NCBI RefSeq assembly: GCF_000003605.2
Contig: NW_003111747.1
Coordinates: 1-21,716 of the forward strand
DNA length: 21,716 nucleotides
Origin: Saccoglossus kowalevskii
Lineage: Eukaryota; Hemichordata; Enteropneusta; Harrimaniidae
Direction: 5' to 3'
Below the pieces are notes generated by a model that worked only from the letters and a program-made list of their open reading frames with translations, had not been told where the DNA came from and made no database searches. Numbering within the stretch: the stretch's first letter is position 1; each line of letters begins with the position of its first letter. A program made the translations under genes and the position numbers. This document shows positions 1 to 21,716 of this stretch, piece by piece.

Positions 1-788
1 TAATACATTGTCCCAGTCACACTATGATATGGTGAGTAATGCATTGTCTCAATCACGCTATGATATCGTGAGTAATACATTGTCTCAATCACACTATGAT
101 GCGGTGAGTATTACATTGTCTCAATCACACTATGATATGGTGGGTAATGCATTGTCTCAATCACGCTATGATATCGTGAGTAATACATTGTCTCAATCAC
201 ACTATGATACGGTGAGTATTACATTTTCTCAATCACACTATGATATGGTGAGTAATGTATTGGCTCAATCACACTATGATACAGTGAATAATGCATAGTC
301 TCAATCACACTATGATGTGGTGAGTAATGTAATGTCTCAGTTATACTATGATATGATGAGTAATGCATTGCGTCAATCACACTATGATACGGTGAGTAAT
401 GCATTATCTCAATAACACTGTGATATGGTGAGTAATACATTGTCTCAATCACACTATGATATGGTGAGTAATACATTGTCTCAATCACACTATGATATGG
501 TGAGTAAATGCATTGTCTCAATCACACTATGATACGGTGAGTAAATGCATTGTCTCAATCACTCTATGGTATGGTGAGGTAATGCATTGTCTCAATCACA
601 CTATAATACAGTGAGTAAATGCATTGTCTCAATCACTCTATGATATGGTGAGTAATGCATTGTCTCAGTTATACTATGATATGGTGAGTAATGTAATGTC
701 TCAGTTATACTATGATATGATGAGTAATGCTTTGCGTCAATCACACTATGATACGGTGAGTAATTCTTTGTCTCAATAACACTATGAT
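1..788 (+). repeat. Left-edge irregular block of 36/37-bp units
   Basis: About 22 units. Units from 29 to 244 show a three-unit (108-bp) order repeated twice: a CACGCTATGAT unit, an ATCGTGAGTAATACATT unit, then a GTGAGTATTACATT unit. Units at 317-424 and 681-788 carry the pair TGTAATGTCTCAGTTATA followed by TTGCGTCAATC, which recurs through the array. Between 497 and 644 four consecutive units each have one extra base (three AGTAAATG, one GAGGTAATG), giving a local 37-bp period. In-frame TAA variants occur near 413 and 777. No gene or unique DNA is present. Confidence 0.9.
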
Positions 789-1580
789 ATGGTGAGTAAT
801 GCATTGTCTCAATCACACTATGATACGGTGAGTATTACATTGTCTCAATCACACTATGATATGGTGAGTAATGCATTGGCTCAATCACACTATGATACAG
901 TGAGTAATGCATTGTCTCAATCACACTATGATATGGTGAGTAATGTAATGTCTCAGTTATACTATGATATGATAAGTAATGCATTGCGTCAATCACACTA
1001 TGATACGGTGAGTAATTCATTGTCTCAATAACACTATGATATGGTGAGTAATGCATTGTCTCAATCACACTATGATATGGTGAATAATACATTGTCTCAA
1101 TCACACTATGATATGGTGAGTAATGCATTGTCTCAATCACACTATGATACGGTGAGTAATGCATTGTCTCAATCACTCAATGATATGGTGAGTAATGAAT
1201 TGTCTCAATCACACTATAATACGATGAGTAATGCATTGTCTCAATCACTCTATGATATGGTGAGTAATGCATTGTCTCAATAACACTATGATATGATGAG
1301 TAATGCATTGTCTCAATAACGCTATGATATGGTCAGTAATGCATTGTCTCAATCACACTATGATACGGTGAGTAATGCATTGTCTCAATCACACTATGAT
1401 ATGGTGAGTAACTCATTGTCTCAATCACACTATGATGCGGTGAGTAATGCATTGTCTCAATCACTCTATGGTATGGTGAGTAATGCATTGTCTTAATCAC
1501 ACTATAATACGGTGAGTAATGCATTGTCTCAATCACTCTATGATATGGTGAGTAATGCATTGTCTCAATAACACTATGAT
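789..1580 (+). repeat. 22-unit block, mixed variants, no clear HOR
   Basis: Twenty-two regular 36-bp units. It opens with the recurrent order TATTACATT, TTGGCTCAATC, ACAGTG, TGTAATGTCTCAGTTATA, TTGCGTCAATC (825-1004), then shifts to R-like units with CACTCTATG and CACTATAAT. TCA-to-TAA changes lie near 1029, 1281, 1317 and 1569. A separate TTGTCTTAATC stop variant sits near 1491 and is matched only near 21283. The stretch 1437-1580 has the same order and private variants (GATGCGG, CTATGGTATGG, TCTTAATC) as 21229-21372, so this edge and the right edge of the window share recent ancestry. Confidence 0.88.
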
Positions 1581-2300
1581 ATGGTGAGTAATGCATTGTC
1601 TCAATCACACTATAATATGGTGAGTAATGCATTGTCTCAATCACACTATGATACGGTAAGTAATGCATTGTCTCAATCACACTATGATATGGTGAGTAAT
1701 GCATTGTCTCAATCACACTATGATACGGTAAGTAATGCATTGTCTCAATCACACTATGATACGGTAAGTAATGCATTGTCTCAATCACACTATGATATGG
1801 TGAGTAACGCATTGTCTCAATCACTCTATGATATGGTGAGTAATTCATTGTCTCAATCACTTTATGACATGGTGAGTAATGAATTGTCTCAATCACACTA
1901 TGATATGGTGAGTAATACATTGTCTCAATCACACTATGATATGGTGAGTAATACATTGGCTCAGTCACACTATGATATGGTGAGTAATACATTGTCTCAA
2001 TCACACTATGATATAGTGAGTAAAACATTATCTCAGTCACATTATGATATGGTGAGTAATGCATTGTCTCAGTCACACTATGATATAGTGAGTAATGCAT
2101 CGTCTCAATTACACTATGATATGGTGAGTAATGCATTGTCGCAAACACACTATAATACAGTGAGTAATGCATTGTCTCAATCACACTATGATATAGCGAG
2201 TAATACATTGTCCCAGTCACACTCTGATATGGTGAGTAATGCATTGTCTCAATCACGCTATGATATCGTGAGTAATACATTGTCTGAATCACACAATGAT
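1581..2300 (+). repeat. 20-unit HOR cassette S, copy 1
   Basis: Twenty exact 36-bp units (720 bp) in the same order as 17627-18346. Diagnostic units in order are: CACTATAAT; two plain units around an ACGGTAAGT unit; two further ACGGTAAGT units; AACGCATT with CACTCTATG; a CACTTTATGACATGG unit; ATGAATT; three ATACATT units (one with TTGGCTCAGTC); an AAAACATTATCTCAGTC unit; CATCGTCTCAATTACAC; TTGTCGCAAACACAC; ATAGCGAG with GTCCCAGTCACACTC; and CACGCTATG. Only a handful of substitutions separate the two copies (for example near 2070, 2154, 2286 and 2296). This order looks like the base cassette from which other HORs in the window derive. Confidence 0.9.
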
Positions 2301-3306
2301 ACGGTGAGTATTACATTGTCTCATCGCACTATGATATGGTGAGTAATGCATTGGCTCATCACACTATGATATAGCGAGTCATACATTGTCCCAGTCACAC
2401 TCTGATATGGTGATTAATGCATTGTCTCAATCACGCTATGATATCGTGAGTAATACATTGTCTCAATCACACTATGATACGGTGAGTATTACATTGTTTC
2501 AATCACACTATGATATGGTGAGTAATGCATTGGCTCAATCACACTATGATACAGTGAGTAATGCATTGTCTCAATCACACTATGATGTGGTGAGTAATGT
2601 AATGTCTCAGTTATACTATGATATGATGAGTAATGCATTGCGTCAATCACACTATGATACGGTGAGTAATGCATTGCCTCAATAACACTATGATATTGTG
2701 AGTAATGCATTGTCTCAATCACACTATGATATGGTGAGTAATACATTGTCTCAATCACACTATGATATGGTGAGTAATGCATTGTCTCAATCACACTATG
2801 ATACGGTGAGTAATGCATTGTCTCAATCACTCTATGGTATGGTGAGTAATGCATTGTCTCAATCACACTATAATACGGTGAGTAATGCATTGTCTCAATC
2901 ACTCTATGATATGGTGAGTAATGCATTGTCTCAATAACACTATGATATGGTGAGTAATGCATTGTCTCAATCACACTATACTATGGTGAGTAATGCATTG
3001 TCTCAATCACACTATGATACGGTGAGTAATGCATTGTCTCAATCACACTATGATATGGTGAGTAACGCATTGTCTCAATCACTCTATGATATGGTGAGTA
3101 ATTCAGTGTCTCAATCACATTATGATATGGTGAGTAATGAATTGTCTCAATCACACTATGATATGGTGAGTAATACATTGTCTCAATCACACTATGATAT
3201 GGTGAGTAATACATTGGCTCAGTCACACTATGATATGTTGAGTAATACATAGTCTCAATCACACTGTGATATAGTGAGTAAAACACTATCTCAGTCACAT
3301 TAAGAT
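2301..3306 (+). repeat. Q-tail plus module R, copy 1
   Basis: A short junction with two 1-bp deletions (TCTCATCGCAC near 2323, GGCTCATCAC near 2356) leads at 2371 into the tail of module Q, then module R from 2695. R holds CACTCTATGG, CACTATAAT and CACTATACT units, a TCAGTGTCTC unit and an ATGTTGAGTAATACATAG unit. The stretch 2371-3306 matches 12959-13894 almost base for base at a constant offset of 10,588, including the private GCATTGCCTCAATAAC unit (2659 and 13247). The one difference I noticed is TTGTTTC versus TTGTCTC near 2492. No coding evidence. Confidence 0.9.
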
Positions 3307-3988
3307 ATGGTGAGTAATGCATTGTCGCAAACACACTTTGATAAAGTGAGTAATGCATTGTCTCAATCACACTATGATATAGCGAGAAATACATTGTCCC
3401 AGTCACACTCAGATATGGTGAGTAATGCATTGTCTCAATCACGCTATGATATCGAAGTAATACATTGTCTCAATCACACTATGATTCGGTGAGTATTACA
3501 TTGTCTCAATCACACTATGATATGGTGAGTATTACATTGTCTCAATCACACTATGATATGGTGAGTAATGAATTGTCTCAATCACACTATGATACAGTGA
3601 GTAATGCATTGTCTCAATCGCACTATGTTACGGTAAGTAATACATTGTCTCAACCACATTCTAATATGGTGAGTAATGAATTGTCATAATCACACTATGA
3701 TATGGTGAGTAATACATTGTCTCAATCACACTCTGATAGGGTGAGTAATGCATTGTCCCAATCACACTATGATATGGTGAGTAATGCATTGTCTCAATCA
3801 CACTATGATATGGTGAGTAATGCAATGTCTCATCATACCATGATATGGTGTGTAATGCATTGTCTCAATCACACTATGATACGGTGAGTGTTGCATTATC
3901 TCAATCACACTATGATATGGTGAGTAATACATTGTCTCAATCACACTATGATATGGTGAGTAATGCATTGTCTCAATCACAGTATGAT
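3307..3988 (+). repeat. Module P, left-truncated copy (P0)
   Basis: Units from 3379 to 3988 match the right part of module P (4888-5493). They include TATCGAAGTAA with a 1-bp deletion near 3453, the GATTCGGTG unit, CACTATGTTACGGTAAGT (3630), CAACCACATTC, the TTGTCATAATC stop variant, and the CATCATACCATG unit. That last unit (3810-3844) keeps the GCAAT bases missing from most other P copies, so it is 35 bp rather than 30 bp. The block ends at the GATACGTGAG junction shared by all P/Q boundaries. Confidence 0.88.
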
Positions 3989-5493
3989 ACGTGAGTAATG
4001 CATTGTCTCAATCGCACTATGATATGGTGAGTAATGCATTGTCTCAATCACACTATGATATGGTGAGTAATGTAATGTCTCAGTTATATTATGATATGAT
4101 GAGTAATGCATTGCGTCAATCACACTATGATGTGGTGAGTAATTCATTGTCTCAATCACATTATGATATGGTGAGTAATGAATTGTCTCAATCACACTGT
4201 GATATAGTGAGTAAAACATTATCTCAATCACATTATGATATGGTGAGTAATGCATTGTCTCAGTCACACTATGATATAGTGAGTAATGCATCGTCTCAAT
4301 TACACTATGATATGGTGAGTAATGCATTGTCGCAAACACACTTTGATAAAGTGAGTAATGCATTGTCTCAATCACACTATGATATAGCGAGTCATACATT
4401 GTCCCAGTCACACTCTGATATGGTGATTAATGCATTGTCTCAATCACGCTATGATATCGTGAGTAATACATTGTCTCAATCACACTATGATACGGTGAGT
4501 ATTACATTGTCTCAATCACACTATGATATGGTGAGTAATGCATTGGCTCAATCACACTATGATATGGTTAGTAATGCATTGTCTCAATCACACTATGATG
4601 TGGTGAGTAATGCATTGTCTCAATCACACTATGATATGGTGAGTAAAGTAATGTCTCAATCACACTATGATATGGTGAGTAATACATTGTCTCAATCACA
4701 CTATGATATGGTGAGTAATACATTGGCTCAGTCAAACTATGATATGGTGAGTAATGCATTGTCTCAGTCACACTATGATATAGTGAGTAATGCATCGTCT
4801 CAATTACACTATGTTATGGTGAGTAAAGTATTGTCGCAAACGCACTATGATACAGTGAGTAATGCAATGTCTCAATCACACTATGATATAGCGAGTAATA
4901 CATTGTCCCAGTCACACTCAGATATGGTGAGTAATGCATTGTCTCAATCACGCTATGATATCGAGAGTAATACATTGTCTCAATCACACTATGATTCGGT
5001 GAGTATTACATTGTCTCAATCACACTATGATATGGTGAGTATTACATTGTCTCAATCACACTATGATATGGTGAGTAATGAATTGTCTCAATCACACTAT
5101 GATACAGTGAGTAATGCATTGTCTCAATCGCACTATGTTACGGTAAGTAATACATTGTCTCAACCACATTCTGATATGGTGAGTAATGAATTGTCATAAT
5201 CACACTATGATATGGTGAGTAATACATTGTCTCAATCACACTCTGATAGGGTGTGTAATGCATTGTCCCAATCACACTATGATATGGTGAGTAATGCATT
5301 GTCTCAATCACACTATGATATGGTGAGTAATGTCTCATCATACCATGATATGGTGTGTAATGCATTGTCTCAATCACACTATGATACGGTGAGTGTTGCA
5401 TTATCTCAATCACACTATGATATGGTGAGTAATACATTGTCTCAATCACACTATGATATGGTGAGTAATGCATTGTCTCAATCACAGTATGAT
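3989..5493 (+). repeat. 42-unit super-repeat QP, copy 1 (1505 bp)
   Basis: Forty-two units, from one P-to-Q junction (GATACGTGAG) to the next. Module Q covers 3989-4491: TGTAATGTCTCAGTTATATT, TTGCGTC, AATTCATT, ATGAATT, AAAACATT, CATCGTCTC, TTGTCGCAAACACACTTTG, GTCATACATT and GATTAATGC units. Module P covers 4492-5493: TTGGCTC, GGTTAGT, AGTAAAGTAATG, CAGTCAAACTATG, CTATGTTATGGTGAGTAAAG, TATCGAGAG, GATTCGG, GGTAAGT, CCACATTC, a TCATAATC stop variant, GATAGGG, and a 30-bp CATCATACCATG unit at 5320. Length equals 42 x 36 minus 6 minus 1. The GTGTGTAATG change near 5252 is private to this copy. Confidence 0.92.
5320..5349 (+). repeat. 30-bp deleted unit; also 6824, 10057, 12390, 16159
   Basis: This unit reads GTGAGTAATGTCTCATCA then TACCATGAT and is 6 bp shorter than consensus. 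Related 35-bp units with TGCAATGTCTCATCATACC sit at 3810, 14291 and 15153. A parsimonious path is one 1-bp deletion (CTCAATC to CTCATC) with local substitutions, then loss of five bases (GCAAT). It is a clean lineage marker for module P. Confidence 0.85.
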
Positions 5494-5502
5494 ACGTGAG
5501 TA
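5487..5502 (+). repeat. P/Q junction signature (seven copies)
   Basis: CAGTATGATACGTGAG combines CACAG for CACAC with loss of one G from CGGTGAG. It occurs at the end of every P module, with the 35-bp unit starting at 3989, 5494, 6998, 10231, 12564, 15332 and 16333, and is always followed by a CAATCGCAC unit. A GATACGTGAG without CACAG occurs near 20690 and is probably independent. The signature sets the register of the central HORs. Confidence 0.9.
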
Positions 5503-6997
5503 ATGCATTGTCTCAATCGCACTATGATATGGTGAGTAATGCATTGTCTCAATCACACTATGATATGGTGAGTAATGTAATGTCTCAGTTATATTATGAT
5601 ATGATGAGTAATGCATTGCGTCAATCACACTATGATGTGGTGAGTAATTCATTGTCTCAATCACATTATGATATGGTGAGTAATGAATTGTCTCAATCAC
5701 ACTCTGATATAGTGAGTAATGCATTGTCCCAATCACACTATGATATGGTGAGTAATGCATTGTCTCAATCACACTATGATATGGTGAGTAATGCATTGTC
5801 TCAATCACGCTGTGATATGGTGAGTAATGCATGTGTCAATCACACTATGATGTGGTGAGTAATCCATTGTCTCGATTATATTATGATATGGTGAGTAATG
5901 AATTGTCTCAATCACACTATGATATGGTGAGTAACACATTGTCTCAATCACACTCTGATATGGTATGTAATACATTGGCTCAGTAACACTATGATATGGT
6001 GAGTATTACATTGTCTCAATCACACTATGATATGGTGAGTAATGCATTGGCTCAATCACACTATGATATGGTTAGTAATGCATTGTCTCAATCACACTAT
6101 GATGTGGTGAGTAATGCATTGTCTCAATCACACTATGATATGGTGAGTAAAGTAATGTCTCAATCACACTATGATATGGTGAGTAATACATTGTCTCAAT
6201 CACACTATGATATGGTGAGTAATACATTGGCTCAGTCAAACTATGATATGGTGAGTAATGCATTGTCTCAGTCACACTATGATATAGTGAGTAATGCATC
6301 GTCTCAATTACACTATGTTATGGTGAGTAAAGTATTGTCGCAAACGCACTATGATACAGTGAGTAATGCAATGTCTCAATCACACTATGATATAGCGAGT
6401 AATACATTGTCCCAGTCACACTCAGATATGGTGAGTAATGCATTGTCTCAATCACGCTATGATATCGAAAGTAATACATTGTCTCAATCACACTATGATT
6501 CGGTGAGTATTACATTGTCTCAATCACACTATGATATGGTGAGTATTACATTGTCTCAATCACACTATGATATGGTGAGTAATGAATTGTCTCAATCACA
6601 CTATGATACAGTGAGTAATGCATTGTCTCAATCGCACTATGTTACGGTAAGTAATACATTGTCTCAACCACATTCTGATATGGTGAGTAATGAATTGTCA
6701 TAATCACACTATGATATGGTGAGTAATACATTGTCTCAATCACACTCTGATAGGGTGAGTAATGCATTGTCCCAATCACACTATGATATGGTGAGTAATG
6801 CATTGTCTCAATCACACTATGATATGGTGAGTAATGTCTCATCATACCATGATATGGTGTGTAATGCATTGTCTCAATCACACTATGATACGGTGAGTGT
6901 TGCATTATCTCAATCACACTATGATATGGTGAGTAATACATTGTCTCAATCACACTATGATATGGTGAGTAATGCATTGTCTCAATCACAGTATGAT
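5494..6997 (+). repeat. 42-unit super-repeat QP, copy 2 (1504 bp)
   Basis: Also 42 units, one base shorter through an extra 1-bp deletion (AATGCATGTGTC near 5831). P (5996-6997) aligns to 4492-5493 at offset 1504 with only a few differences. The second half of Q is replaced: 5781-5995 carries CACGCTGTG, TTGTGTC, AATCCATTGTCTCGATTATA and AACACATT units that reappear only at 9013-9228. Copies 1 and 2 thus have the same unit number but not the same unit content, which suggests unequal exchange or conversion of an internal nine-unit tract. Confidence 0.9.
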
Positions 6998-9900
6998 ACG
7001 TGAGTAATGCATTGTCTCAATCGCACTATGATATGGTGAGTAATGCATTGTCTCAATCACACTATGATATGGTGAGTAATGTAATGTCTCAGTTATATTA
7101 TGATATGATGAGTAATGCATTGCGTCAATCACACTATGATGTGGTGAGTAATTCATTGTCTCAATCACATTATGATATGGTGAGTAATGAATTGTCTCAA
7201 TCACACTATGATATAGTGAGTAATGCATCGTCTCAATTACACTATGATATGGTGAGTAATGCATTGTCGCAAACACACTTTGATAAAGTGAGTAATGCAT
7301 TGTCTCAATCACACTATGATATAGCGAGTCATACATTGTCCCAGTCACACTCTGATATGGTGATTAATGCATTGTCTCAATCACGCTATGATATCGTGAG
7401 TAATACATTGTCTCAATCACACTATGATACGGTGAGTATTACATTGTCTCAATCACACTATGATATGGTGAGTAATGCATTGGCTCAATCACACTATGAT
7501 ACAGTGAGTAATGCATTGTCTCAATCACACTATGATGTGGTGAGTAATGTAATGTCTCAGTTATACTATGATATGATGAGTAATGCATTGCGTCAATCAC
7601 ACTATGATACGGTGAGTAATGCATTGTCTCAATAACACTATGATATTGTGAGTAATGCATTGTCTCAATCACACTATGATATGGTGAGTAATACATTGTC
7701 TCAATCACACTATGATATGGTGAGTAATGCATTGTCTCAATCACACTATGATGTGGTGAGTAATGTAATGTCTCAGTTATACTATGATATGATGAGTAAT
7801 GCATTGCGTCAATCACACTATGATACGGTGAGTAATGCATTGTCTCAATAACACTATGATATGGTGAGTAATGCATTGTCTCAAACACATTATGATATGG
7901 CGGGTAATACATTGTCTCAATCACACTATGATATGGTGAGTAATACATTGTCTCAATCACACTATGATATGGTGAGTAATACATTGTCTCAGTCACACTA
8001 TGATATGTTGAGTAATACATAGTCTCAATCACACTGTGATATAGTGAGTAAAACACTATCTCAGTCACATTAAGATATGGTGAGTAATGCATTGTCTCAG
8101 TCACACTATGATATAGTGAGTAATGCATCGTCTCAATTACACTATGATATGGTGAGTAATGCACTGTCGCAAACACACTACGATAAAGTGAGTAATGCAT
8201 TGTCTCAATCACACTATGATATAGCGAGTAATACATTGTCCCAGTCACACTCTGGTATGGTGATTAATGCATTGTCTCAATCACGCTATGATATCGTGAG
8301 TAATACATTGTCTCAATCACACTATGATACGGTGAGTATTACATTGTCTCAATCACACTATGATATGGTGAGTAATGCATTGGCTCAATCACACTATGAT
8401 ATGGTTAGTAATGCATTGTCTCAATCACACTATGATGTGGTGAGTAATGCATTGTCTCAATCACACTATGATATGGTGAGTAAAGTAATGTCTCAATCAC
8501 ACTATGATATGGTGAGTAATACATTGTCGCAATCACACTATGATATGGTGAGTAATACATTGGCTCAGTCAAACTATGATATGGTGAGTAATGCATTGTC
8601 TCAGTCACACTATGATATAGTGAGTAATGCATCGTCTCAATTACACTATGTTATGGTGAGTAAAGTATTGTCGCAAACGCACTATGATACAGTGAGTAAT
8701 GCATTGTCTCAATCACACTATGATACGGTGAGTAATGCATTGTCTCAATCACTCTATGGTATGGTGAGTAATGCATTGTCTCAATCACACTATAATACGG
8801 TGAGTAATGCATTGTCTCAATAACACTATGATATGGTGAGTAATGCAATGTCTCAATCACACTATGATATAATGAGTAATGCATTGTCTCAATCACACTA
8901 TGATATGGTGAGTAACGCATTGTCTCAATCACTCTATGATATGATGAATAATGCATTGTCTCAATGACACTATGATATGGTTAGTAATGCATTGTCTCAA
9001 TCGCACTATGATATGGTGAGTAATGCATTGTCTCAATCACGCTGTGATATGGTGAGTAATGCATTGTGTCAATCACACTATGATGTGGTGAGTAATCCAT
9101 TGTCTCGATTATATTATGATATGGTGAGTAATGAATTGTCTCAATCACACTATGATATGGTGAGTAACACATTGTCTCAATCACACTCTGATATGGTGAG
9201 TAATACATTGGCTCAGTAACACTATGATATGGTGAGTATTACATTGTCTCAATCACACTATGATATGGTGAGTAATGCATTGGCTCAATCACACTATGAT
9301 ATGGTTAGTAATGCATTGTCTCAATCACACTATGATGTGGTGAGTAATGCATTGTCTCAATCACACTATGATATGGTGAGTAAAGTAATGTCTCAATCAC
9401 ACTATGATATGGTGAGTAATACATTGTCTCAATCACACTATGATATGGTGAGTAATACATTGGCTCAGTCAAACTATGATATGGTGAGTAATGCATTGTC
9501 TCAGTCACACTATGATATAGTGAGTAATGCATCGTCTCAATTACACTATGTTATGGTGAGTAAAGTATTGTCGCAAACGCACTATGATACAGTGAGTAAT
9601 GCAATGTCTCAATCACACTATGATATAGCGAGTAATACATTGTCCCAGTCACACTCAGATATGGTGAGTAATGCATTGTCTCAATCACGCTATGATATCG
9701 AGAGTAATACATTGTCTCAATCACACTATGATTCGGTGAGTATTACATTGTCTCAATCACACTATGATATGGTGAGTATTACATTGTCTCAATCACACTA
9801 TGATATGGTGAGTAATGAATTGTCTCAATCACACTATGATACAGTGAGTAATGCATTGTCTCAATCGCACTATGTTACGGTAAGTAATACATTGTCTCAA

Positions 9901-10230
9901 CCACATTCTGATATGGTGAGTAATGAATTGTCATAATCACACTATGATATGGTGAGTAATACATTGTCTCAATCACACTCTGATAGGGTGAGTAATGCAT
10001 TGTCCCAATCACACTATGATATGGTGAGTAATGCATTGTCTCAATCACACTATGATATGGTGAGTAATGTCTCATCATACCATGATATGGTGTGTAATGC
10101 ATTGTCTCAATCACACTATGATACGGTGAGTGTTGCATTATCTCAATCACACTATGATATGGTGAGTAATACATTGTCTCAATCACACTATGATATGGTG
10201 AGTAATGCATTGTCTCAATCACAGTATGAT
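6998..10230 (+). repeat. Expanded super-repeat, 3.23 kb, with two P modules
   Basis: The longest spacing between GATACGTGAG junctions. Order: Q (6998-7644, lacking two units found in copy 1); a shortened R-like stretch (7645-8076) in which the three-unit set with TGTAATGTCTCAGTTATA and TTGCGTC is repeated (7537-7644 and 7753-7860); a core cassette (8077-8328) with CACTACGAT; a right-truncated P (8329 to about 8700); R-like and Q2-like units (about 8701-9228); and a full P (9229-10230). The segment 9013-10230 is almost identical to 5781-6997. In-frame stops occur near 7633, 7849, 8028, 8821, 8965 and 9217. Confidence 0.88.
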
Positions 10231-12563
10231 ACGTGAGTAATGCATTGTCTCAATCGCACTATGATATGGTGAGTAATGCATTGTCTCAATCACACTATGA
10301 TATGGTGAGTAATGTAATGTCTCAGTTATATTATGATATGATGAGTAATGCATTGCGTCAATCACACTATGATGTGGTGAGTAATTCATTGTCTCAATCA
10401 CATTATGATATGGTGAGTAATGAATTGTCTCAATCACACTATGATATAGTGAGTAATGCATCGTCTCAATTACACTATGATATGGTGAGTAATGCATTGT
10501 CGCAAACACACTTTGATAAAGTGAGTAATGCATTGTCTCAATCACACTATGATATAGCGAGTCATACATTGTCCCAGTCACACTCTGATATGGTGATTAA
10601 TGCATTGTCTCAATCACGCTATGATATCGTGAGTAATACATTGTCTCAATCACACTATGATATGGTGAGTAATGCATTGGCTCAATCACACTATGATACA
10701 GTGAGTAATGCATTGTCTCAATCACACTATGATGTGGTGAGTAATGTAATGTCTCAGTTATACTATGATATGATGAGTAATGCATTGCGTCAATCACACT
10801 ATGATACGGTGAGTAATGCATTGTCTCAATAACACTATGATATTGTGAGTAATGCATTGTCTCAATCACACTATGATATGGTGAGTAATACATTGTCTCA
10901 ATCACACTATGATATGGTGAGTAATGCATTGTCTCAATCACACTATGATACGGTGAGTAATGCATTGTCTCAATCACTCTATGGTATGGTGAGTAATGCA
11001 TTGTCTCAATCACACTATAATACGGTGAGTAATGCATTGTCTCAATCACTCTATGATATGGTGAGTAATGCATTGTCTCAATAACACTATGATATGGTGA
11101 GTAATGCATTGTCTCAATCACACTATACTATGGTGAGTAATGCATTGTCTCAATCACACTATGATACGGTGAGTAATGCATTGTCTCAATCACACTATGA
11201 TATGGTGAGTAACGCATTGTCTCAATCACTCTATGATATGGTGAGTAATTCAGTGTCTCAATCACATTATGATATGGTGAGTAATGAATTGTCTCAATCA
11301 CACTATGATATGGTGAGTAATACATTGTCTCAATCACACTATGATATGGTGAGTAATACATTGTCTCAGTCACACTATGATATGTTGAGTAATACATAGT
11401 CTCAATCACACTGTGATATAGTGAGTAAAACACTATCTCAGTCACATTAAGATATGGTGAGTAATGCATTGTCTCAGTCACACTATGATATAGTGAGTAA
11501 TGCATCGTCTCAATTACACTATGATATGGTGAGTAATGCACTGTCGCAAACACACTACGATAAAGTGAGTAATGCATTGTCTCAATCACACTATGATATA
11601 GCGAGTAATACATTGTCCCAGTCACACTATGATACGGTGAGTATTACATTGTCTCAATCACACTATGATATGGTGAGTAATGCATTGGCTCAAACACACT
11701 ATGATATGGTTAGTAATGCATTGTCTCAATCACACTATGATGTGGTGAGTAATGCATTGTTTCAATCACACTATGATATGGTGAGTAAAGTAATGTCTCA
11801 ATCACACTATGATATGGTGAGTAATACATTGTCTCAATCACACTATGATATGGTGAGTAATACATTGGCTCAGTCAAACTATGATATGGTGAGTAATGCA
11901 TTGTCTCAGTCACACTATGATATAGTGAGTAATGCATCGTCTCAATTACACTATGTTATGGTGAGTAAAGTATTGTCGCAAACGCACTATGATACAGTGA
12001 GTAATGCAATGTCTCAATCACACTATGATATAGCGAGTAATACATTGTCCCAGTCACACTCAGATATGGTGAGTAATGCATTGTCTCAATCACGCTATGA
12101 TATCGAGAGTAATACATTGTCTCAATCACACTATGATTCGGTGAGTATTACATTGTCTCAATCACACTATGATACAGTGAGTAATGCATTGTCTCAATCG
12201 CACTATGTTACGGTAAGTAATACATTGTCTCAACCACATTCTGATATGGTGAGTAATGAATTGTCATAATCACACTATGATATGGTGAGTAATACATTGT
12301 CTCAATCACACTCTGATAGGGTGAGTAATGCATTGTCCCAATCACACTATGATATGGTGAGTAATGCATTGTCTCAATCACACTATGATATGGTGAGTAA
12401 TGTCTCATCATACCATGATATGGTGTGTAATGCATTGTCTCAATCACACTATGATACGGTGAGTGTTGCATTATCTCAATCACACTATGATATGGTGAGT
12501 AATACATTGTCTCAATCACACTATGATATGGTGAGTAATGCATTGTCTCAATCACAGTATGAT
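10231..12563 (+). repeat. Super-repeat Q-R-core-P, 2.33 kb
   Basis: Q (10231-10841) lacks the TATTACATT unit present at 7429. R (10842-11453) is the twin of 13283-13894; I noticed one difference (TTGTCTC versus TTGGCTC near 11354). The core (11454-11633) lacks two units compared with 8077-8328: GATTAATGC with CACGCTATG, and the following ATCGTGAG unit. P (11634-12563) is 930 bp because two units (the second TATTACATT and the ATGAATT unit, 72 bp) are missing relative to 4492-5493. Whole-unit deletions in register are the usual product of unequal exchange within an array. Confidence 0.9.
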
Positions 12564-15331
12564 ACGTGAGTAATGCATTGTCTCAATCGCACTATGATAT
12601 GGTGAGTAATGCATTGTCTCAATCACACTATGATATGGTGAGTAATGTAATGTCTCAGTTATTTTATGATATGATGAGTAATGCATTGCGTCAATCACAC
12701 TATGATGTGGTGAGTAATTCATTGTCTCAATCACATTATGATATGGTGAGTAATGAATTGTCTCAATCACACTATGATATAGTGAGTAAAACATTATCTC
12801 AGTCACATTATGATATGGTGAGTAATGCATTGTCTCAGTCACACTATGATATAGTGAGTAATGCATCGTCTCAATTACACTATGATATGGTGAGTAATGC
12901 ATTGTCGCAAACACACTTTGATAAAGTGAGTAATGCATTGTCTCAATCACACTATGATATAGCGAGTCATACATTGTCCCAGTCACACTCTGATATGGTG
13001 ATTAATGCATTGTCTCAATCACGCTATGATATCGTGAGTAATACATTGTCTCAATCACACTATGATACGGTGAGTATTACATTGTCTCAATCACACTATG
13101 ATATGGTGAGTAATGCATTGGCTCAATCACACTATGATACAGTGAGTAATGCATTGTCTCAATCACACTATGATGTGGTGAGTAATGTAATGTCTCAGTT
13201 ATACTATGATATGATGAGTAATGCATTGCGTCAATCACACTATGATACGGTGAGTAATGCATTGCCTCAATAACACTATGATATTGTGAGTAATGCATTG
13301 TCTCAATCACACTATGATATGGTGAGTAATACATTGTCTCAATCACACTATGATATGGTGAGTAATGCATTGTCTCAATCACACTATGATACGGTGAGTA
13401 ATGCATTGTCTCAATCACTCTATGGTATGGTGAGTAATGCATTGTCTCAATCACACTATAATACGGTGAGTAATGCATTGTCTCAATCACTCTATGATAT
13501 GGTGAGTAATGCATTGTCTCAATAACACTATGATATGGTGAGTAATGCATTGTCTCAATCACACTATACTATGGTGAGTAATGCATTGTCTCAATCACAC
13601 TATGATACGGTGAGTAATGCATTGTCTCAATCACACTATGATATGGTGAGTAACGCATTGTCTCAATCACTCTATGATATGGTGAGTAATTCAGTGTCTC
13701 AATCACATTATGATATGGTGAGTAATGAATTGTCTCAATCACACTATGATATGGTGAGTAATACATTGTCTCAATCACACTATGATATGGTGAGTAATAC
13801 ATTGGCTCAGTCACACTATGATATGTTGAGTAATACATAGTCTCAATCACACTGTGATATAGTGAGTAAAACACTATCTCAGTCACATTAAGATATGGTG
13901 AGTAATGCATTGTCTCAGTCACACTATGATATAGTGAGTAATGCATCGTCTCAATTACACTATGATATGGTGAGTAATGCACTGTCGCAAACACACTACG
14001 ATAAAGTGAGTAATGCATTGTCTCAATCACACTATGATATAGCGAGTAATACATTGTCCCAGTCACACTCTGATATGGTGATTAATGCATTGTCTCAATC
14101 ACGCTATGATATCGTGAGTAATACATTGTCTCAATCACACTATGATACGGTGAGTATTACATTGTCTCAATCACACTATGATATGGTGAGTAATGCATTG
14201 GCTCAATCACACTATGATAGGGTGAGTAATGCATTGTCCCAATCACACTATGATACGGTGAGTAATGCATTGTCTCAATCACACTATGATACGGTGAGTA
14301 ATGCAATGTCTCATCATACCATGATATGGTGAGTAACGCATTGTCTCAATCACTCTATGATATGGTGAGTAATGCATTGTCTCAATAACACTATGATATG
14401 GTTAGTAATGCATTGTCTCAATCGCACTATGATATGGTGAGTAATGCATTGTCTCAATCACACTATGATATGGTGAGTAAAGTAATGTCTCAATCACACT
14501 ATGATATGGTGAGTAATACATTGTCTCAATCACACTATGATATGGTGAGTAATACATTGGCTCAGTCAAACTATGATATGGTGAGTAATGCATTGTCTCA
14601 GTCACACTATGATATAGTGAGTAATGCATCGTCTCAATTACACTATGTTATGGTGAGTAAAGTATTGTCGCAAACGCACTATGATACAGTGAGTAATGCA
14701 ATGTCTCAATCACACTATGATATAGCGAGTACTACATTGTCCCAGTCACACTCAGATATGGTGAGTAATGCATTGTCTCAATCACGCTATGATATCGAAG
14801 TAATACATTGTCTCAATCACACTATGATTCGGTGAGTATTACATTGTCTCAATCACACTATGATATGGTGAGTATTACATTGTCTCAATCACACTATGAT
14901 ATGGTGAGTAATGAATTGTCTCAATCACACTATGATACAGTGAGTAATGCATTGTCTCAATCGCACTATGTTACGGTAAGTAATACATTGTATCAACCAC
15001 ATTCTGATATGGTGAGTAATGAATTGTCATAATCACACTATGATATGGTGAGTAATACATTGTCTCAATCACACTCTGATAGGGTGAGTAATGCATTGTC
15101 CCAATCACACTATGATATGGTGAGTAATGCATTGTCTCAATCACACTATGATATGGTGAGTAATGCAATGTCTCATCATACCATGATATGGTGTGTAATG
15201 CATTGTCTCAATCACACTATGATAAGGTGAGTGTTGCATTATCTCAATCACACTAAGATATGGTGAGTAATACATTGTCTCAATCACACTATGATATGGT
15301 GAGTAATGCATTGTCTCAATCACAGTATGAT
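12564..15331 (+). repeat. Super-repeat Q-R-core-P, 2.77 kb
   Basis: The most complete example of the Q-R-core-P order. Q (12564-13282) retains the AAAACATTATCTC unit; one unit has TTATTTTATG in place of TTATATTATG near 12663. R is 13283-13894 and the core is 13895-14218. A short mosaic (14219-14397) joins a GATAGGG unit, a CATCATACCATG unit of 35 bp (14291), an AACGCATT/CTCTATG unit and a TAA-bearing unit. P resumes at 14398 and ends at the junction. P here shares TATCGAAGTAA and the GCAAT-containing CATCATACC unit (15153) with P0 at 3379-3988, so these two distant copies are a subtype. Confidence 0.9.
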
Positions 15332-16332
15332 ACGTGAGTAATGCATTGTCTCAATCGCACTATGATATGGTGAGTAATGCATTGTCTCAATCACACTATG
15401 ATATGGTGAGTAATGTAATGTCTCAGTTATATTATGATATGATGAGTAATGCATTGCGTCAATCACACTATGATGTGGTGAGTAATTCATTGTCTCAATC
15501 ACATTATGATATGGTGAGTAATGAATTGTCTCAATCACACTATGATATAGTGAGAAAAACATTATCTCAATCACATTATGATATGGTGAGTAATGCATTG
15601 TCTCAGTCACACTATGATATAGTGAGTAATGCATCGTCTCAATTACACTATGATATGGTGAGTAATGCATTGTCGCAAACACACTTTGATAAAGTGAGTA
15701 ATGCATTGTCTCAATCACACTATGATATAGCGAGTCATACATTGTCCCAGTCACACTCTGATATGGTGATTAATGCATTGTCTCAATCACGCTATGATAT
15801 CGTGAGTAATACATTGTCTCAATCACACTATGATACGGTGAGTATTACATTGTCTCAATCACACTATGATATGGTGAGTAATGAATTGTCTCAATCACAC
15901 TATGATACAGTGAGTAATGCATTGTCTCAATCGCACTATGTTACGGTAAGTAATACATTGTCTCAACCACATTCTGATAGGGTGAGTAATGCATTGTCCC
16001 AATCACACTATGATATGGTGAGTAATGCATTGTCTCAATCACACTATGATATGGTGAGTAATACATTGTCTCAATCACACTCTGATAGGGTGAGTAATGC
16101 ATTGTCCCAATCACACTATGATATGGTGAGTAATGCATTGTCTCAATCACACTATGATATGGTGAGTAATGTCTCATCATACCATGATATGGTGTGTAAT
16201 GCATTGTCTCAATCACACTATGATACGGTGAGTGTTGCATTATCTCAATCACACTATGATATGGTGAGTAATACATTGTCTCAATCACACTATGATATGG
16301 TGAGTAATGCATTGTCTCAATCACAGTATGAT
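15332..16332 (+). repeat. Short super-repeat Q-P, 1.0 kb, internally deleted
   Basis: Q (15332-15870) runs normally to the TATTACATT unit, then jumps straight to the ATGAATT unit of P (15871 corresponds to 5068), omitting the sixteen P units between 4492 and 5067. It then joins GATAGGG directly after CCACATTC (15979), skipping the stop-bearing ATGAATTGTCATAATC unit, and repeats the GATAGGG plus plain-unit set at 16087. The final 282 bp (16051-16332) match 5212-5493. This is the shortest junction-to-junction spacing, a natural product of an in-register deletion. Confidence 0.9.
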
Positions 16333-17050
16333 ACGTGAGTAATGCATTGTCTCAATCGCACTATGATATGGTGAGTAATGCATTGTCTCAATCACACTAT
16401 GATATGGTGAGTAATGTAATGTCTCAGTTATATTATGATATGATGAGTAATGCATTGCGTCAATCACACTATGATGTGGTGAGTAATTCATTGTCTCAAT
16501 CACATTATGATATGGTGAGTAATGAATTGTCTCAATCACACTATGATATAGTCAGTAAAACATTATCTCAGTCACATTATGATATGGTGAGTAATGCATT
16601 GTCTCAGTCACACTATGATATAGTGAGTAATGCATCGTCTCAATTACACTATGATATGGTGAGTAATGCATTGTCGCAAACACACTTTGATAAAGTGAGT
16701 AATGCATTGTCTCAATCACACTATGATATAGCGAGTCATACATTGTCCCAGTCACACTCTGATATGGTGATTAATGCATTGTCTCAATCACGCTATGATA
16801 TCGTGAGTAATACATTGTCTCAATCACACTATGATACGGTGAGTATTACATTGTCTCAATCACACTATGATATGGTGAGTAATGCATTGGCTCAATCACA
16901 CTATGATACAGTGAGTAATGCATTGTCTCAATCACACTATGATGTGGTGAGTAATGTAATGTCTCAGTTATACTATGATATGATGAGTAATGCATTGCGT
17001 CATCACACTATGATACGGTGAGTAATGCATTGTCTCAATAACACTATGAT
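16333..17050 (+). repeat. Module Q, last copy before the diverged block
   Basis: Twenty units matching 12564-13282, ending with TGTAATGTCTCAGTTATA (16944), TTGCGTCATCAC with a 1-bp deletion (near 17000), and a TAA-bearing unit (17015-17050). One unit has AGTCAGTAAAACATT at 16551 instead of AGTGAGT. No module R or P follows, so the regular central HOR domain ends here. Confidence 0.9.
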
Positions 17051-17626
17051 ATTGAGAGAATGCCTTGTCTCAATCACACTATGATATGGTGAGTAATACA
17101 TTGTCTCAATCACTCTATGATATGGTGAGTAATGCATTTGTCTCAGTCACATTATGATATGGTGAGTAATGCATTGTCTCATTCACACAATGATATAGTG
17201 AGTAATGCATCGTCTCTCTTACAATATGATATGGTGAGTAATGCATTGTCTCAAACACTCAATGATACTCTGAGTAATGCATTGTCTCAATCACACTATG
17301 ATATAGCGAGTAATACGTTGTCCCAATCGAACTCTGATATGGTGAGTAATGGATTGTCTCAATCTGGCTATGATATCGTGAGTAATACTTTGTCGCAATC
17401 ACACTATGATACTGTGAGTATTACCTTGTCTCAATCACATTATGATATGGTGAGTAATGCATTGGCTCAATCACACTATAATACGGTGAGTTATGCATTG
17501 TCTCAATCACTCTATGATATGGTGAGTAATGCATTGTCTCATATCCACTATGATATGGTGAGTAATGCATTGTCACATTCACTCTATGATATGGTGAGTA
17601 ATGCATTGTCTCAATAACACTATGAT
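17051..17626 (+). repeat. Diverged relic block of the same cassette
   Basis: Sixteen units with an unusual load of private changes: TTGAGAGAATGCCTTG (17051, 1 bp short), GCATTTGTC (1-bp insertion near 17137), CACACAATG, CATCGTCTCTCTTACAATATG, CAAACACTCAATGATACTCTGAG, TACGTTG, CAATCGAACTC, TGGATTG, CAATCTGGCTATG, TACTTTGTCGC, GATACTGTG, TACCTTG, CATATCCAC and TGTCACATTC. Yet unit order from 17159 (plain, CATCG, CAAACAC, plain, ATAGCGAG, TGGCTATG, ATCGTGAG, TATTACC, TTGGCTC) is the order of cassette S. It is best read as an older copy outside recent homogenisation, at the border between two HOR domains. Confidence 0.88.
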
Positions 17627-18706
17627 ATGGTGAGTAATGCATTGTCTCAATCACACTATAATATGGTGAGTAATGCATTGTCTCAATCACACTATGATAC
17701 GGTAAGTAATGCATTGTCTCAATCACACTATGATATGGTGAGTAATGCATTGTCTCAATCACACTATGATACGGTAAGTAATGCATTGTCTCAATCACAC
17801 TATGATACGGTAAGTAATGCATTGTCTCAATCACACTATGATATGGTGAGTAACGCATTGTCTCAATCACTCTATGATATGGTGAGTAATTCATTGTCTC
17901 AATCACTTTATGACATGGTGAGTAATGAATTGTCTCAATCACACTATGATATGGTGAGTAATACATTGTCTCAATCACACTATGATATGGTGAGTAATAC
18001 ATTGGCTCAGTCACACTATGATATGGTGAGTAATACATTGTCTCAATCACACTATGATATAGTGAGTAAAACATTATCTCAGTCACATTATGATATGGTG
18101 AGTAATGCATTGTCTCATTCACACTATGATATAGTGAGTAATGCATCGTCTCAATTACACTATGATATGGTGAGTAATGCATTGTCGCAAACACACTATG
18201 ATACAGTGAGTAATGCATTGTCTCAATCACACTATGATATAGCGAGTAATACATTGTCCCAGTCACACTCTGATATGGTGAGTAATGCATTGTCTCAATC
18301 ACGCTATGAAATCGTGAGTAATACATTGTCTCAATCACACTATGATACGGTGAGTATTGCATTGTCTCAATCACATTATGATATGGTTAGTAATGCATTG
18401 GCTCAATCACACTATGATACAGTGAGTAATGCATTGTCTCAATCACACTATGATGTGGTGAGTAATGTAATGTCTCAGTTATACTATGATATGATGAGTA
18501 ATAAATTGTCCCAATCACACTATGATACGGTGAGTATTGCATTGTCTAAATCACATTATGATATGGTGAGTAATGCATTGGCTCAATCACACTATGATAC
18601 AGTGAGTAATGCATTGTCTCAATCACACTATGATGTGGTGAGTAATGTAATGTCTCAGTTATACTATGATATGATGAGTAATAAATTGTCCCAATCACAC
18701 TATGAT
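17627..18706 (+). repeat. HOR cassette S, copy 2, with 180-bp tandem duplication
   Basis: The first 20 units (17627-18346) reproduce 1581-2300. They continue with TATTGCATT, TTGGCTC, ACAGTG, TGTAATGTCTCAGTTATA and AATAAATTGTCCC units. That five-unit, 180-bp set then repeats at once (18347-18526 and 18527-18706), the copies differing at TCTCAATC versus TCTAAATC near 18547 and GGTTAGT versus GGTGAGT near 18387. The AATAAATTG unit replaces the TTGCGTC unit seen elsewhere. The longest open frame in the window (584 codons) starts at 17627, but it owes its length only to the absence of the TAA variant here. Confidence 0.9.
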
Positions 18707-19390
18707 GTGCTGAGTAATTCATTGTCTCAATCACATTATGTTATGGTGAGTAATGAACTGTCTCAATCACACTATGATATGGTGAGTAATACATTGTCTC
18801 AATCACACTATGATATGGTGAGTAATACATTGGCTCAGTCACACTATGATATGGTGAGTAATACATTGTCTCAATCACACTATGATATAGTGAGTAAAAC
18901 ATTATCTCAGTCACATTATGATATGGTGAGTAATGCATTGTCTCATTCACACTATGATATAGTGAGTAATGCATCGTCTCAATTACACTATGATATGGTG
19001 AGTAATGCATTGTCGCAAACACACTATGATACAGTGAGTAATGCATTGTCTCAATCACACTATGATATAGCGAGTAATACATTGTCCCAGTCACACTCTG
19101 ATATGGTGAGTAATGCATTGTCTCTATCACGCTATGAAATCGTGAGTAATACATTGTCTCAATCACACTATGATACGGTGAGTATTACATTGTCTCAATC
19201 ACATTATGATATGGTGAGTAATGCATTGGTTCAATCACACTATGATACAGTGAGTTATGCATTGTCTCAATCACACTATGATGTGGTGAGTAATGTAATG
19301 TCTCAGTTATACTATGATATGATGAGTAATGCATTGCGTCAATCACACTATGATACGGTGAGTAATGCATTGTCTCAATAACACTATGAT
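18707..19390 (+). repeat. HOR cassette S, copy 3, left-truncated
   Basis: Units 18743-19354 match 17915-18526 at offset 828 (23 units), with few changes: GAACTG near 18757, TCTCTATC near 19125, TTGGTTCAATC near 19227 and AGTTATGC near 19254. The shared private changes TCTCATTCAC (near 18115 and 18943) and CACGCTATGAAATCG (near 18302 and 19130) set copies 2 and 3 apart from copies 1 and 4. The block closes with TGTAATGTCTCAGTTATA, TTGCGTC and a TAA-bearing unit. Confidence 0.88.
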
Positions 19391-20506
19391 ATGGTGAGTA
19401 ATGCATTGTCTCAATCACACTATGATATGGTGAGTAATACATTGTCTCAATCACACTATGATATGGTGAGTAATGCATTATCTCAATCACACTATGATAC
19501 GGTGAGTAATCCATTGTCTCAATCACTCTATGGTATGGTGAGTAATACATTGTCTCAATCACACTATGATATGGTGAGTAATGCATTATCTCAATCACAC
19601 TATGATACGGTGAGTAATGCATTGTCTCAGTCACACTATAATATGGTGAGTAATGCATTGTCTCAATAACACGATTATATGGTGAGTAATACATTGTCTC
19701 AATCACACTATAATATGGTGAGTAATGCATTGTCTCAATCACACTATGATACGGTGAGTAAAGCATTGTCTCAATCACACTATGATATGGTGAGTAACGC
19801 ATTGTCTCAATCACTCTATGATACGGTGAGTAATGCATTGTCTCAATCACTCTATGGTATGGTGAGTAATGCATTGTCTCAATAACACTATGATATGGTG
19901 AGTAATGCATTGTCTCAATCACACTATAATATGGTGAGTAATGCATTGTCTCATTCACACTATGATACGGTAAGTAATGCTTTGTCTCAATCACACTATG
20001 ATATGGTGAGTAACGCATTGATTCAATCACTCTATGATATGGTGAGTAATGAATTGTCTCAATCACTTTATGACATGGTGAGTAATGAATTGTCTCAATC
20101 ACACTATGATATGGTGAGTAATACATTGTCTCAATCACACTATGATATGGTGAGTAATACATTGTCTCAGTCATATTATGATATGGTGAGTAATACATTG
20201 TCTCAATCACACTATGATATAGTGAGAAAAACATTATCTCAGTCACATTATGATATGGTGAGTAATGCATTGTCTCAGTCACACTATGATATAGTGAGTA
20301 ATGCATCGTCTCAATTACACTATGATATGGTGAGTAATGCATTGTCGCAAACACACTATGATACAGTGAGTAATGCATTGTCTCAATCACACTATGATAT
20401 AGCGAGTAATACATTGTCCCAGTCACACTCTGATATGGTGAGTAATGCATTGTCTCAATCACGCTATGATATCGTGAGTAATACATTGTCTCAATCACAC
20501 TATTGA
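19391..20506 (+). repeat. R-like units followed by cassette S, copy 4
   Basis: Units 19391-19894 are R-like (CACTCTATGG, CACTATAAT, AATCCATT), with TAA variants near 19667 and 19883. One unit reads AACACGATTATATGG near 19673 where others have AACACTATGATATGG. From 19895 the S order begins, with GATTCAATC near 20020, a CACTTTATGACATGG unit, CAGTCATATTATG near 20167 and GTGAGAAAAACATT near 20222. S then runs in register to the CACGCTATG and ATCGTGAG units. No gene. Confidence 0.85.
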
Positions 20507-20976
20507 TACGGTGAGTATTACATTGTCTCAATCGCACTATGATATAGGTGAGTAAATGCATTGTCTCAATCACACTATGATATGGTGAGTAATGCATTGT
20601 CTCAATCACACTATGATGTGGTGAGTAATGTAATGTCTCAGTTTTACTATGATATGATGAGTAATGCATTGCGTCAATCACACTATGATACGTGAGTAAT
20701 GCATTGTCTCAATAACACTATGATATGGTGAGTAATGCATTGTCTCAATCACACTATGATATGGTGGGTAATACATTGTCTCACTCACACTATGATATGG
20801 TGAGTAATGCATTGTCTCAATCACACTATGATACGGTGAGTAATGCATTGTCTCAATCCTTCTATGGTATGGTGAGTAATGCATTGTCTCAATAACACTA
20901 TGATATGGTGAGTAATGCATTGTCTCAATCACACTATAATATGGTGAGTAATGCATTGTCTCAATAACACTATGAT
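20507..20976 (+). repeat. Indel-rich junction block
   Basis: Three single-base insertions lie within about 50 bp (CACTATTGATACGG near 20504, GATATAGGTGAG near 20544, AGTAAATGC near 20555). A GATACGTGAG 1-bp deletion follows near 20690, resembling the central-domain junction but in different flanking units. TAA variants are near 20715, 20893 and 20965. Elsewhere units are plain or R-like. The GATATAGGTGAG insertion recurs once, near 21698. Confidence 0.82.
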
Positions 20977-21716
20977 ATGGTGAGTAATGCATTGTCTCAA
21001 TCACACTATAATATGGTAAGTAATGCATTGTCTCAATCACACTATGATACGGTATGTAATGCATTGTCTCAATCACACTATGATATGGTGAGTAACGCAT
21101 TGTCTCAATCACTCTATGATATGGTGAGTAATGAATTGTCTCAATCACTTTATGACATGGTGAGTAATGAATTGTCTCAATCACACTATGATATGGTGAG
21201 TAATGCATTGTCTCAATCACACTATGATGCGGTGAGTAATGCATTGTCTCAATCACTCTATGGTATGGTGAGTAATGCATTGTCTTAATCACACTATAAT
21301 ACGGTGAGTAATGCATTGTCTCAATCACTCTATGATATGGTGAGTAATGCATTTTCTCAATAACACTATGATATGGTGAGTAATGCATTGTCTCAATCAC
21401 ACTATAATATGGTGAGTAATGCATTGTCTCAATCACACTATGATACGGTAAGTAATGCATTGTCTCAATCACACTATGATATGGTGAGTAACGCATTGTC
21501 TCAATCACTCTATGATATGGTGAGTAATTCATTGTCTCAATCACTTTATGACATGGTGAGTAATGAATTGTCTCAATCACACTATGATATGGTGAGTAAT
21601 ACATTGTCTCAATCACACTATGATATGGTGAGTAATACATTGGCTCAGTCACACTATGATATGGTGAGTAATACATTGTCTCAATCACACTATGATATAG
21701 GTGAGTAAAACATTAT
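20977..21716 (+). repeat. S-type units, copies 5 and 6, running off the right edge
   Basis: Copy 5 (20977 to about 21180) follows S order: CACTATAAT, ACGGTATGT, AACGCATT/CTCTATG, CACTTTATGACATGG, ATGAATT. It is followed by GATGCGG, CTATGGTATGG, TCTTAATC and TAA units (21229-21372) that duplicate 1437-1580. Copy 6 starts at 21373, lacks three of the early S1 units (108 bp), and then matches 1797 onwards to the window end. The last unit reads GATATAGGTGAGTAAAACATTAT, one base longer than its S1 counterpart. The array clearly continues. Confidence 0.87.

Follow-up and report, generated by a model that had tools for sequence, protein, structure and literature searches.

The monomers of alpha satellite are about 70% identical, and the higher-order blocks into which they are organized reach 97–100% identity; the mechanisms proposed for this repeat include unequal crossing-over, gene conversion and rolling-circle replication, and some centromeres are described as having no CENP-B box (part of PMC8122249). 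Shorter monomers are known in Vicia where, in the sections cited here, VicTR-B has a 38-bp monomer and a 186-bp higher-order repeat of five monomers (PMC2543021), and the centromeric short monomers of Vicia faba are 44–50 bp long (PMC5895790). Furthermore, a 36-bp tandem unit, 36TR, resides inside the pDv transposable element of Drosophila virilis (PMC6922343, in part). Here we describe an array with a 36-bp monomer that occupies contig NW_003111747.1 of the hemichordate Saccoglossus kowalevskii (hereafter C580) throughout; the window that was analysed is this entire contig, 21,716 bases. We consider it probable (roughly 0.85) that this is a non-coding satellite array of the minisatellite type, the irregular higher-order repeats of which arose through repeated in-register unequal exchange, perhaps accompanied by conversion.

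1..21708, forward strand: tandem array of a 36-bp monomer with the consensus TAATGCATTGTCTCAATCACACTATGATATGGTGAG, about 604 copies in a single orientation according to Tandem Repeats Finder (TRF); the unit alignment continues to 21716.

Such a long head-to-tail array of one monomer family is what is expected of satellite or large minisatellite DNA. Wrap-around alignment to the consensus across the whole window yields 605 units, namely 573 of 36 bp, 18 of 35 bp, seven of 37 bp, five of 30 bp, one of 38 bp and a final partial unit of 11 bp, with neither a flank nor any other DNA seen between the units. The 604 full units comprise 182 distinct sequences, 112 of which occur only once, and randomly ordered units are 86.9% identical (13.1% mismatch), i.e., diverge by ~13%, whereas the 39 gap-free segment pairs scoring at least 20 show ~99.1% identity (273 mismatches in 30,780 columns), although these pairs overlap and hence are not 39 independent measures. 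The segments are 11–47 units long and 97.0–99.9% identical (98.6–99.9% in the 32 pairs internal to the core of the array, as defined below), and cover 483 of the 604 units. Five-unit words recur at 265 of 600 positions, compared with none in each of 200 shuffles.

In this arrangement of diverged monomers in far more identical blocks, the hallmark of a higher-order repeat, the array resembles primate alpha satellite, in which monomers likewise differ within a block and the blocks are nearly identical to one another. It differs in the size of the monomer (36 bp compared with ~171 bp), in the irregular length of the blocks (28–90 units, 1.0–3.2 kb) and in the lack of the CENP-B core pattern, with 0 matches on either strand of the window. 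Regular block length is typical of the alpha-satellite form; given the range of 28–90 units, we call the present structure irregular rather than regular higher-order. VicTR-B, compared here by part of its published description and not by sequence, is similar in its nearly equal monomer length and homogenized higher-order form but has five monomers per block, whereas the present blocks contain tens of monomers and vary in length. Like the minisatellites for which variant-repeat maps have been made, the array consists of short tandem units, to each of which a letter can be assigned (PMC2897807, in part). The comparison with 36TR is one of unit length, not of sequence, and, in contrast to the linkage with a transposable element in the cited portion of that work, only the array is present in the window. 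A typical minisatellite locus is shorter than this one, which extends over at least 21.7 kb and 604 units. A CRISPR array was also considered and rejected, the units being contiguous, without spacers. Five monomer stretches had no match in an open paper library, a search that excluded other papers, figures and supplements. The array is a new family of a known kind, and block copying within the array is the ordinary way in which repeat arrays grow.

The blocks were defined by cutting the core after each of seven copies of a marker 10-mer, GATACGTGAG; the left edge of the first block (unit 66) was our choice.

1..2378, forward strand: left part, with fewer near-identical partners within the window, not more distant from the consensus.
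2379..17129, forward strand: recently homogenized core with irregular higher-order repeats, units 66–476.
2379..3995, forward strand: block B1, units 66–110 (45 units), with the marker unit at its end.
3996..5500, forward strand: block B2, units 111–152 (42 units).
5501..7004, forward strand: block B3, units 153–194 (42 units).
7005..10237, forward strand: block B4, units 195–284 (90 units).
10238..12570, forward strand: block B5, units 285–349 (65 units).
12571..15338, forward strand: block B6, units 350–426 (77 units).
15339..16339, forward strand: block B7, units 427–454 (28 units).
17130..21716, forward strand: right part, with fewer near-identical partners within the window.

In 21 unit-level alignments, the seven blocks align in one order, and the gaps represent gains or losses of consecutive whole units; the alignment handles whole units only, so that this result is partly built in, and the base lengths of the blocks agree with it. 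The nearly identical blocks also have private variants in common. Among the unit types that occur once in each block of a pair, 3,228 order comparisons are concordant and 81 discordant (3,309 in total), compared with ~50% discordant after shuffling. A preliminary description of this DNA had proposed that modules termed Q, R, core and P follow one another in a fixed order, with whole modules or units gained or lost. These modules came without a definition; judged on units alone, the fixed order is borne out by the concordance and by the repeated five-unit words, and so are the whole-unit changes, within the limit of the alignment method just given. At the level of single blocks, a 10-unit run of B4 (8337–8696) is repeated 25 units further on (9237–9596) with one mismatch, and B7 is without a run found in longer blocks and is rejoined at a type C unit, as read by eye from the letter strings.

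The mean mismatch to the nearest unit is 0.06–0.20 in the eight 50-unit bins between 1.8 and 16.2 kb, 0.52 in the first bin, 0.64, 0.46 and 0.42 in three bins beyond 16.2 kb, and 0.0 in the last bin, which holds only 4 units. The units on the two sides might be older than those of the core; we word this conditionally because they are not farther from the consensus. The units longer than 36 bp, eight in all, are located at 505–653 (three), at 17130 (one) and at 20479–21705 (four), and the single-base insertions close to both contig ends perhaps reflect lower base accuracy or an older array.

The marker 10-mer starts at 3986, 5491, 6995, 10228, 12561, 15329 and 16330 and, outside the core, at 20687, i.e., there are eight matches where 0.01 are expected from 100 shuffles. 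The first seven are separated by 1505, 1504, 3233, 2333, 2768 and 1001 bp, or 42, 42, 90, 65, 77 and 28 units; arithmetic on the unit list shows that these distances fall short of multiples of 36 because the intervening 30- and 35-bp units lack bases.

3961..3995, forward strand: marker unit 1, 35 bp, ending in AGTATGATACGTGAG, with identical copies from 5466, 6970, 10203, 12536, 15304 and 16305.
5328..5357, forward strand: derived 30-bp unit with a further 5-bp deletion; five of the seven markers have such a unit upstream (further copies at 6832, 10065, 12398 and 16167).
20662..20696, forward strand: the eighth GATACGTGAG, in another unit type and outside the clade of the first seven.

All seven identical copies of the marker unit also carry a C-to-G change (AGTATG). 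In the 21 pairs of these copies, homology continues past the marker for 7–34 units upstream and 5–22 units downstream. Because the homology runs through it, GATACGTGAG is not an amplification junction: it is a 1-bp deletion variant within the block and not the site where copies were joined, a passenger marker rather than a break site. The preliminary description, whose seven occurrences and six spacings are exact (the site at 20687 lies beyond the range it had given), derived multi-kilobase units of variable length from one junction-bearing ancestor; blocks of 28–90 units and their shared descent agree with this proposal, and it is the term junction that has to be dropped.

Shared descent is evident in the 13-unit module around the marker, in which at most 8 of 468 columns differ among the seven copies, compared with at least 43 of 468 between these modules and 24 random windows and 53–57 between them and the eighth copy. 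In a tree with the same 24 windows and the eighth copy, a check named beforehand in the preliminary description, the seven modules form one clade as it had anticipated, with support of 100/99 from a bootstrap that had not fully settled. The unit with the eighth GATACGTGAG differs from the marker unit in 3 columns, and its surroundings match those of the marker over 0 units on the left and 2 on the right; most likely, it represents an independent 1-bp deletion in the same base run. At the place where the 30-bp unit precedes five of the markers, the other two have a 35-bp form (3818, 15161), and a third 35-bp form is found at 14299. The likely order of events is the AGTATG change, the 1-bp deletion, block duplication, the 5-bp deletion in one lineage, and then more duplication together with loss.

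Under this scenario, out-of-step exchange between sister or homologous arrays would have led to several duplications of a stretch of diverged units with the 1-bp deletion, and later exchanges and conversions would have added or removed whole runs of units, because strands mispair by whole units, leaving blocks of unequal length; the second deletion, that of the 30-bp unit, would have arisen in one lineage and then reached five of the seven blocks by copying. In-register unequal exchange would be expected to leave behind indels of whole units, blocks of irregular length and core units with closer partners. The gaps of 25 and 50 units after unit 207 have identical units at their flanks, and the units at indel edges show on average 0.56 mismatches compared with 3.24 under the null. 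A neutral exchange simulation (12 runs) gave repeated five-unit words at a fraction of 0.25–0.69 (observed 0.44) and twelve-unit words at 0.08–0.46 (observed 0.15); its parameters were chosen by hand, and exchange was barred near the ends, so that the end effect is built in and was not used.

Several observations weigh against this scenario. Several of the 16 classes behind the indel-edge statistic merely reflect the block periods and thereby inflate its value, and at both two-unit gaps the flanking units have at least two mismatches. The simulated coefficient of variation of the marker spacing, 0.44–0.77, exceeds the observed 0.38 in all 12 runs, the simulated value being an average over several unit types and the observed one coming from a single marker. 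The 81 discordant order comparisons have to be accommodated, 45 of which involve one unit type. The outer bins are nearer the consensus, with 2.28 for the first bin and 2.20 for the last full one, than those between them (2.54–2.88). There are also weak signs of mosaic blocks (P = 0.019 for B5–B1, 0.003 for B5–B6, 0.030 for B1–B6 and 0.091 for B5–B4, all uncorrected and with the parts chosen by hand). Finally, as detailed below for a second contig, individual units also move or persist independently of blocks.

It is rather doubtful that exchange breakpoints recur at preferred unit types, such that identical copies of certain unit variants, and not chance, would determine where block edges fall. 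In 14 of the 21 marker pairs, the homology stops 5 or 6 units past the marker on the downstream side, and the losses in B7 and B2 rejoin at type C units, again by eye; the common homology ends and the type C joins could alike follow from the common ancestry of the blocks.

The genome was searched for further copies (572,110,611 bases in 4,830 contigs) by exact matching, which misses diverged copies. The 32-base core of the monomer has 151 exact occurrences, all forward as the contigs are written, of which 88 are in C580 and 63 in contig C4651; since these add up to 151, the exact core is present in no other contig. The array found thus amounts to ~41 kb of 572 Mb, and the two contigs are a lower bound because diverged or collapsed copies would escape. 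The 19,729 bases of C4651 consist of 549 units end to end by unit parse (TRF covered the first 10,000 bases only). The two contigs have 91 unit types in common, and their best two common segments are 28 and 30 units long with 3 and 5 mismatches. Nevertheless, they are no more colinear than expected by chance (chain score of 283 compared with a shuffled mean of 299 and a maximum of 385), and the possibility that they are simple, in-line alleles was rejected because the score is below the shuffled mean. C4651 contains two copies of the identical marker unit at a distance of 71 bp. To their left, no neighbouring unit matches the marker surroundings in C580, and to their right 0 or 2 units do; it is because these copies match no surroundings that we regard single units as moving or persisting on their own. 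The two copies (1663–1768) are two units apart, with an undeleted AGTATG unit between them. Two such undeleted units are present in C4651 (motif at 1715 and 4307), and they possibly represent the precursor state of the marker unit. The 30-bp unit was not found in C4651.

In circle-based amplification, the blocks would be generated through extrachromosomal circles or rolling-circle replication followed by reinsertion and not by stepwise unequal exchange; rolling-circle replication is among the mechanisms put forward for alpha satellite. Rolling circles would be expected to give consecutive blocks of equal length, whereas the spacings here correspond to 42, 42, 90, 65, 77 and 28 units, and B2 and B3, the only blocks of equal length, still differ by the replacement of a six- to eight-unit run; we therefore find this origin unlikely. 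Gene conversion acting alone, i.e., spreading the marker among pre-existing positions without block duplication, would accommodate both the isolated marker units of C4651 and the signs of mosaic blocks. However, the homology around the seven markers covers 12 to 46 further units per pair, and, given such long flanking homology together with length changes by whole runs, duplication and loss are also needed, which makes conversion alone quite improbable. The blocks might also be an assembly artefact, that is, wrongly joined copies of fewer real segments or alleles. In line with this possibility, which likewise counts against our interpretation, C580 is without a unique flank, exact matches reveal only one other array contig, and the 2-kb ends of both contigs have 80–380 60-base words in common in four comparisons. 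Against it, the block copies differ in substitutions, in nested deletions and in different whole-unit indels, and the two contigs, not being colinear beyond chance, are not simple alleles, so that we hold an artefact to be very unlikely. Thus, we retain in-register unequal exchange within a non-coding array, the mechanism already named in the preliminary description; it fits the data, and conversion or circle-based amplification could have contributed.

That the array encodes a huge protein with a 12-residue repeat can be all but dismissed. The length of the monomer is divisible by 3 and there is an open run of 587 codons in one frame, but each of the six frames contains 523–692 stops, and units of 30, 35, 37 and 38 bp either cause frameshifts or omit residues. 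In the two frames in which the consensus is free of stops, 312 and 305 of 1,466 variant occurrences are silent, 21% compared with the 22% expected, and in the other four frames, in which each consensus unit contains a stop, the silent share is 8% to 33% compared with 17–28% expected; these counts include variants found in at least two units, and the occurrences are not independent, the units being copies of one another. With stops in six frames and neither a silent excess nor constraint in either stop-free consensus frame, the array is non-coding, as satellite or large minisatellite DNA is.

No function beyond that of general satellite DNA is indicated. Of 4,227 Rfam families, none matched at gathering score, and the folding of a trimer is unremarkable (z = −1.57, with 13 of 200 shuffles equally good). 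Phage, plasmid and Escherichia coli records had no match to 2,001 of the 21,716 bases, and none of the patterns compared with IMG/VR and GTDB contigs, two for each collection, was matched exactly. The array is of interest as a readable record of repeat turnover, from which the likely sequence of a substitution, a deletion, block duplication and a second deletion can be read, and as a further case of irregular higher-order repeats built from a very short monomer; it leaves the general view of satellite evolution unchanged. Double TTAGGG or TTTAGGG motifs are absent from the window. Elsewhere in the assembly, TTAGGG repeats are found at the start of contig C4632 (from base 1) and in at least three clusters inside contig C3217 (5892–10280).

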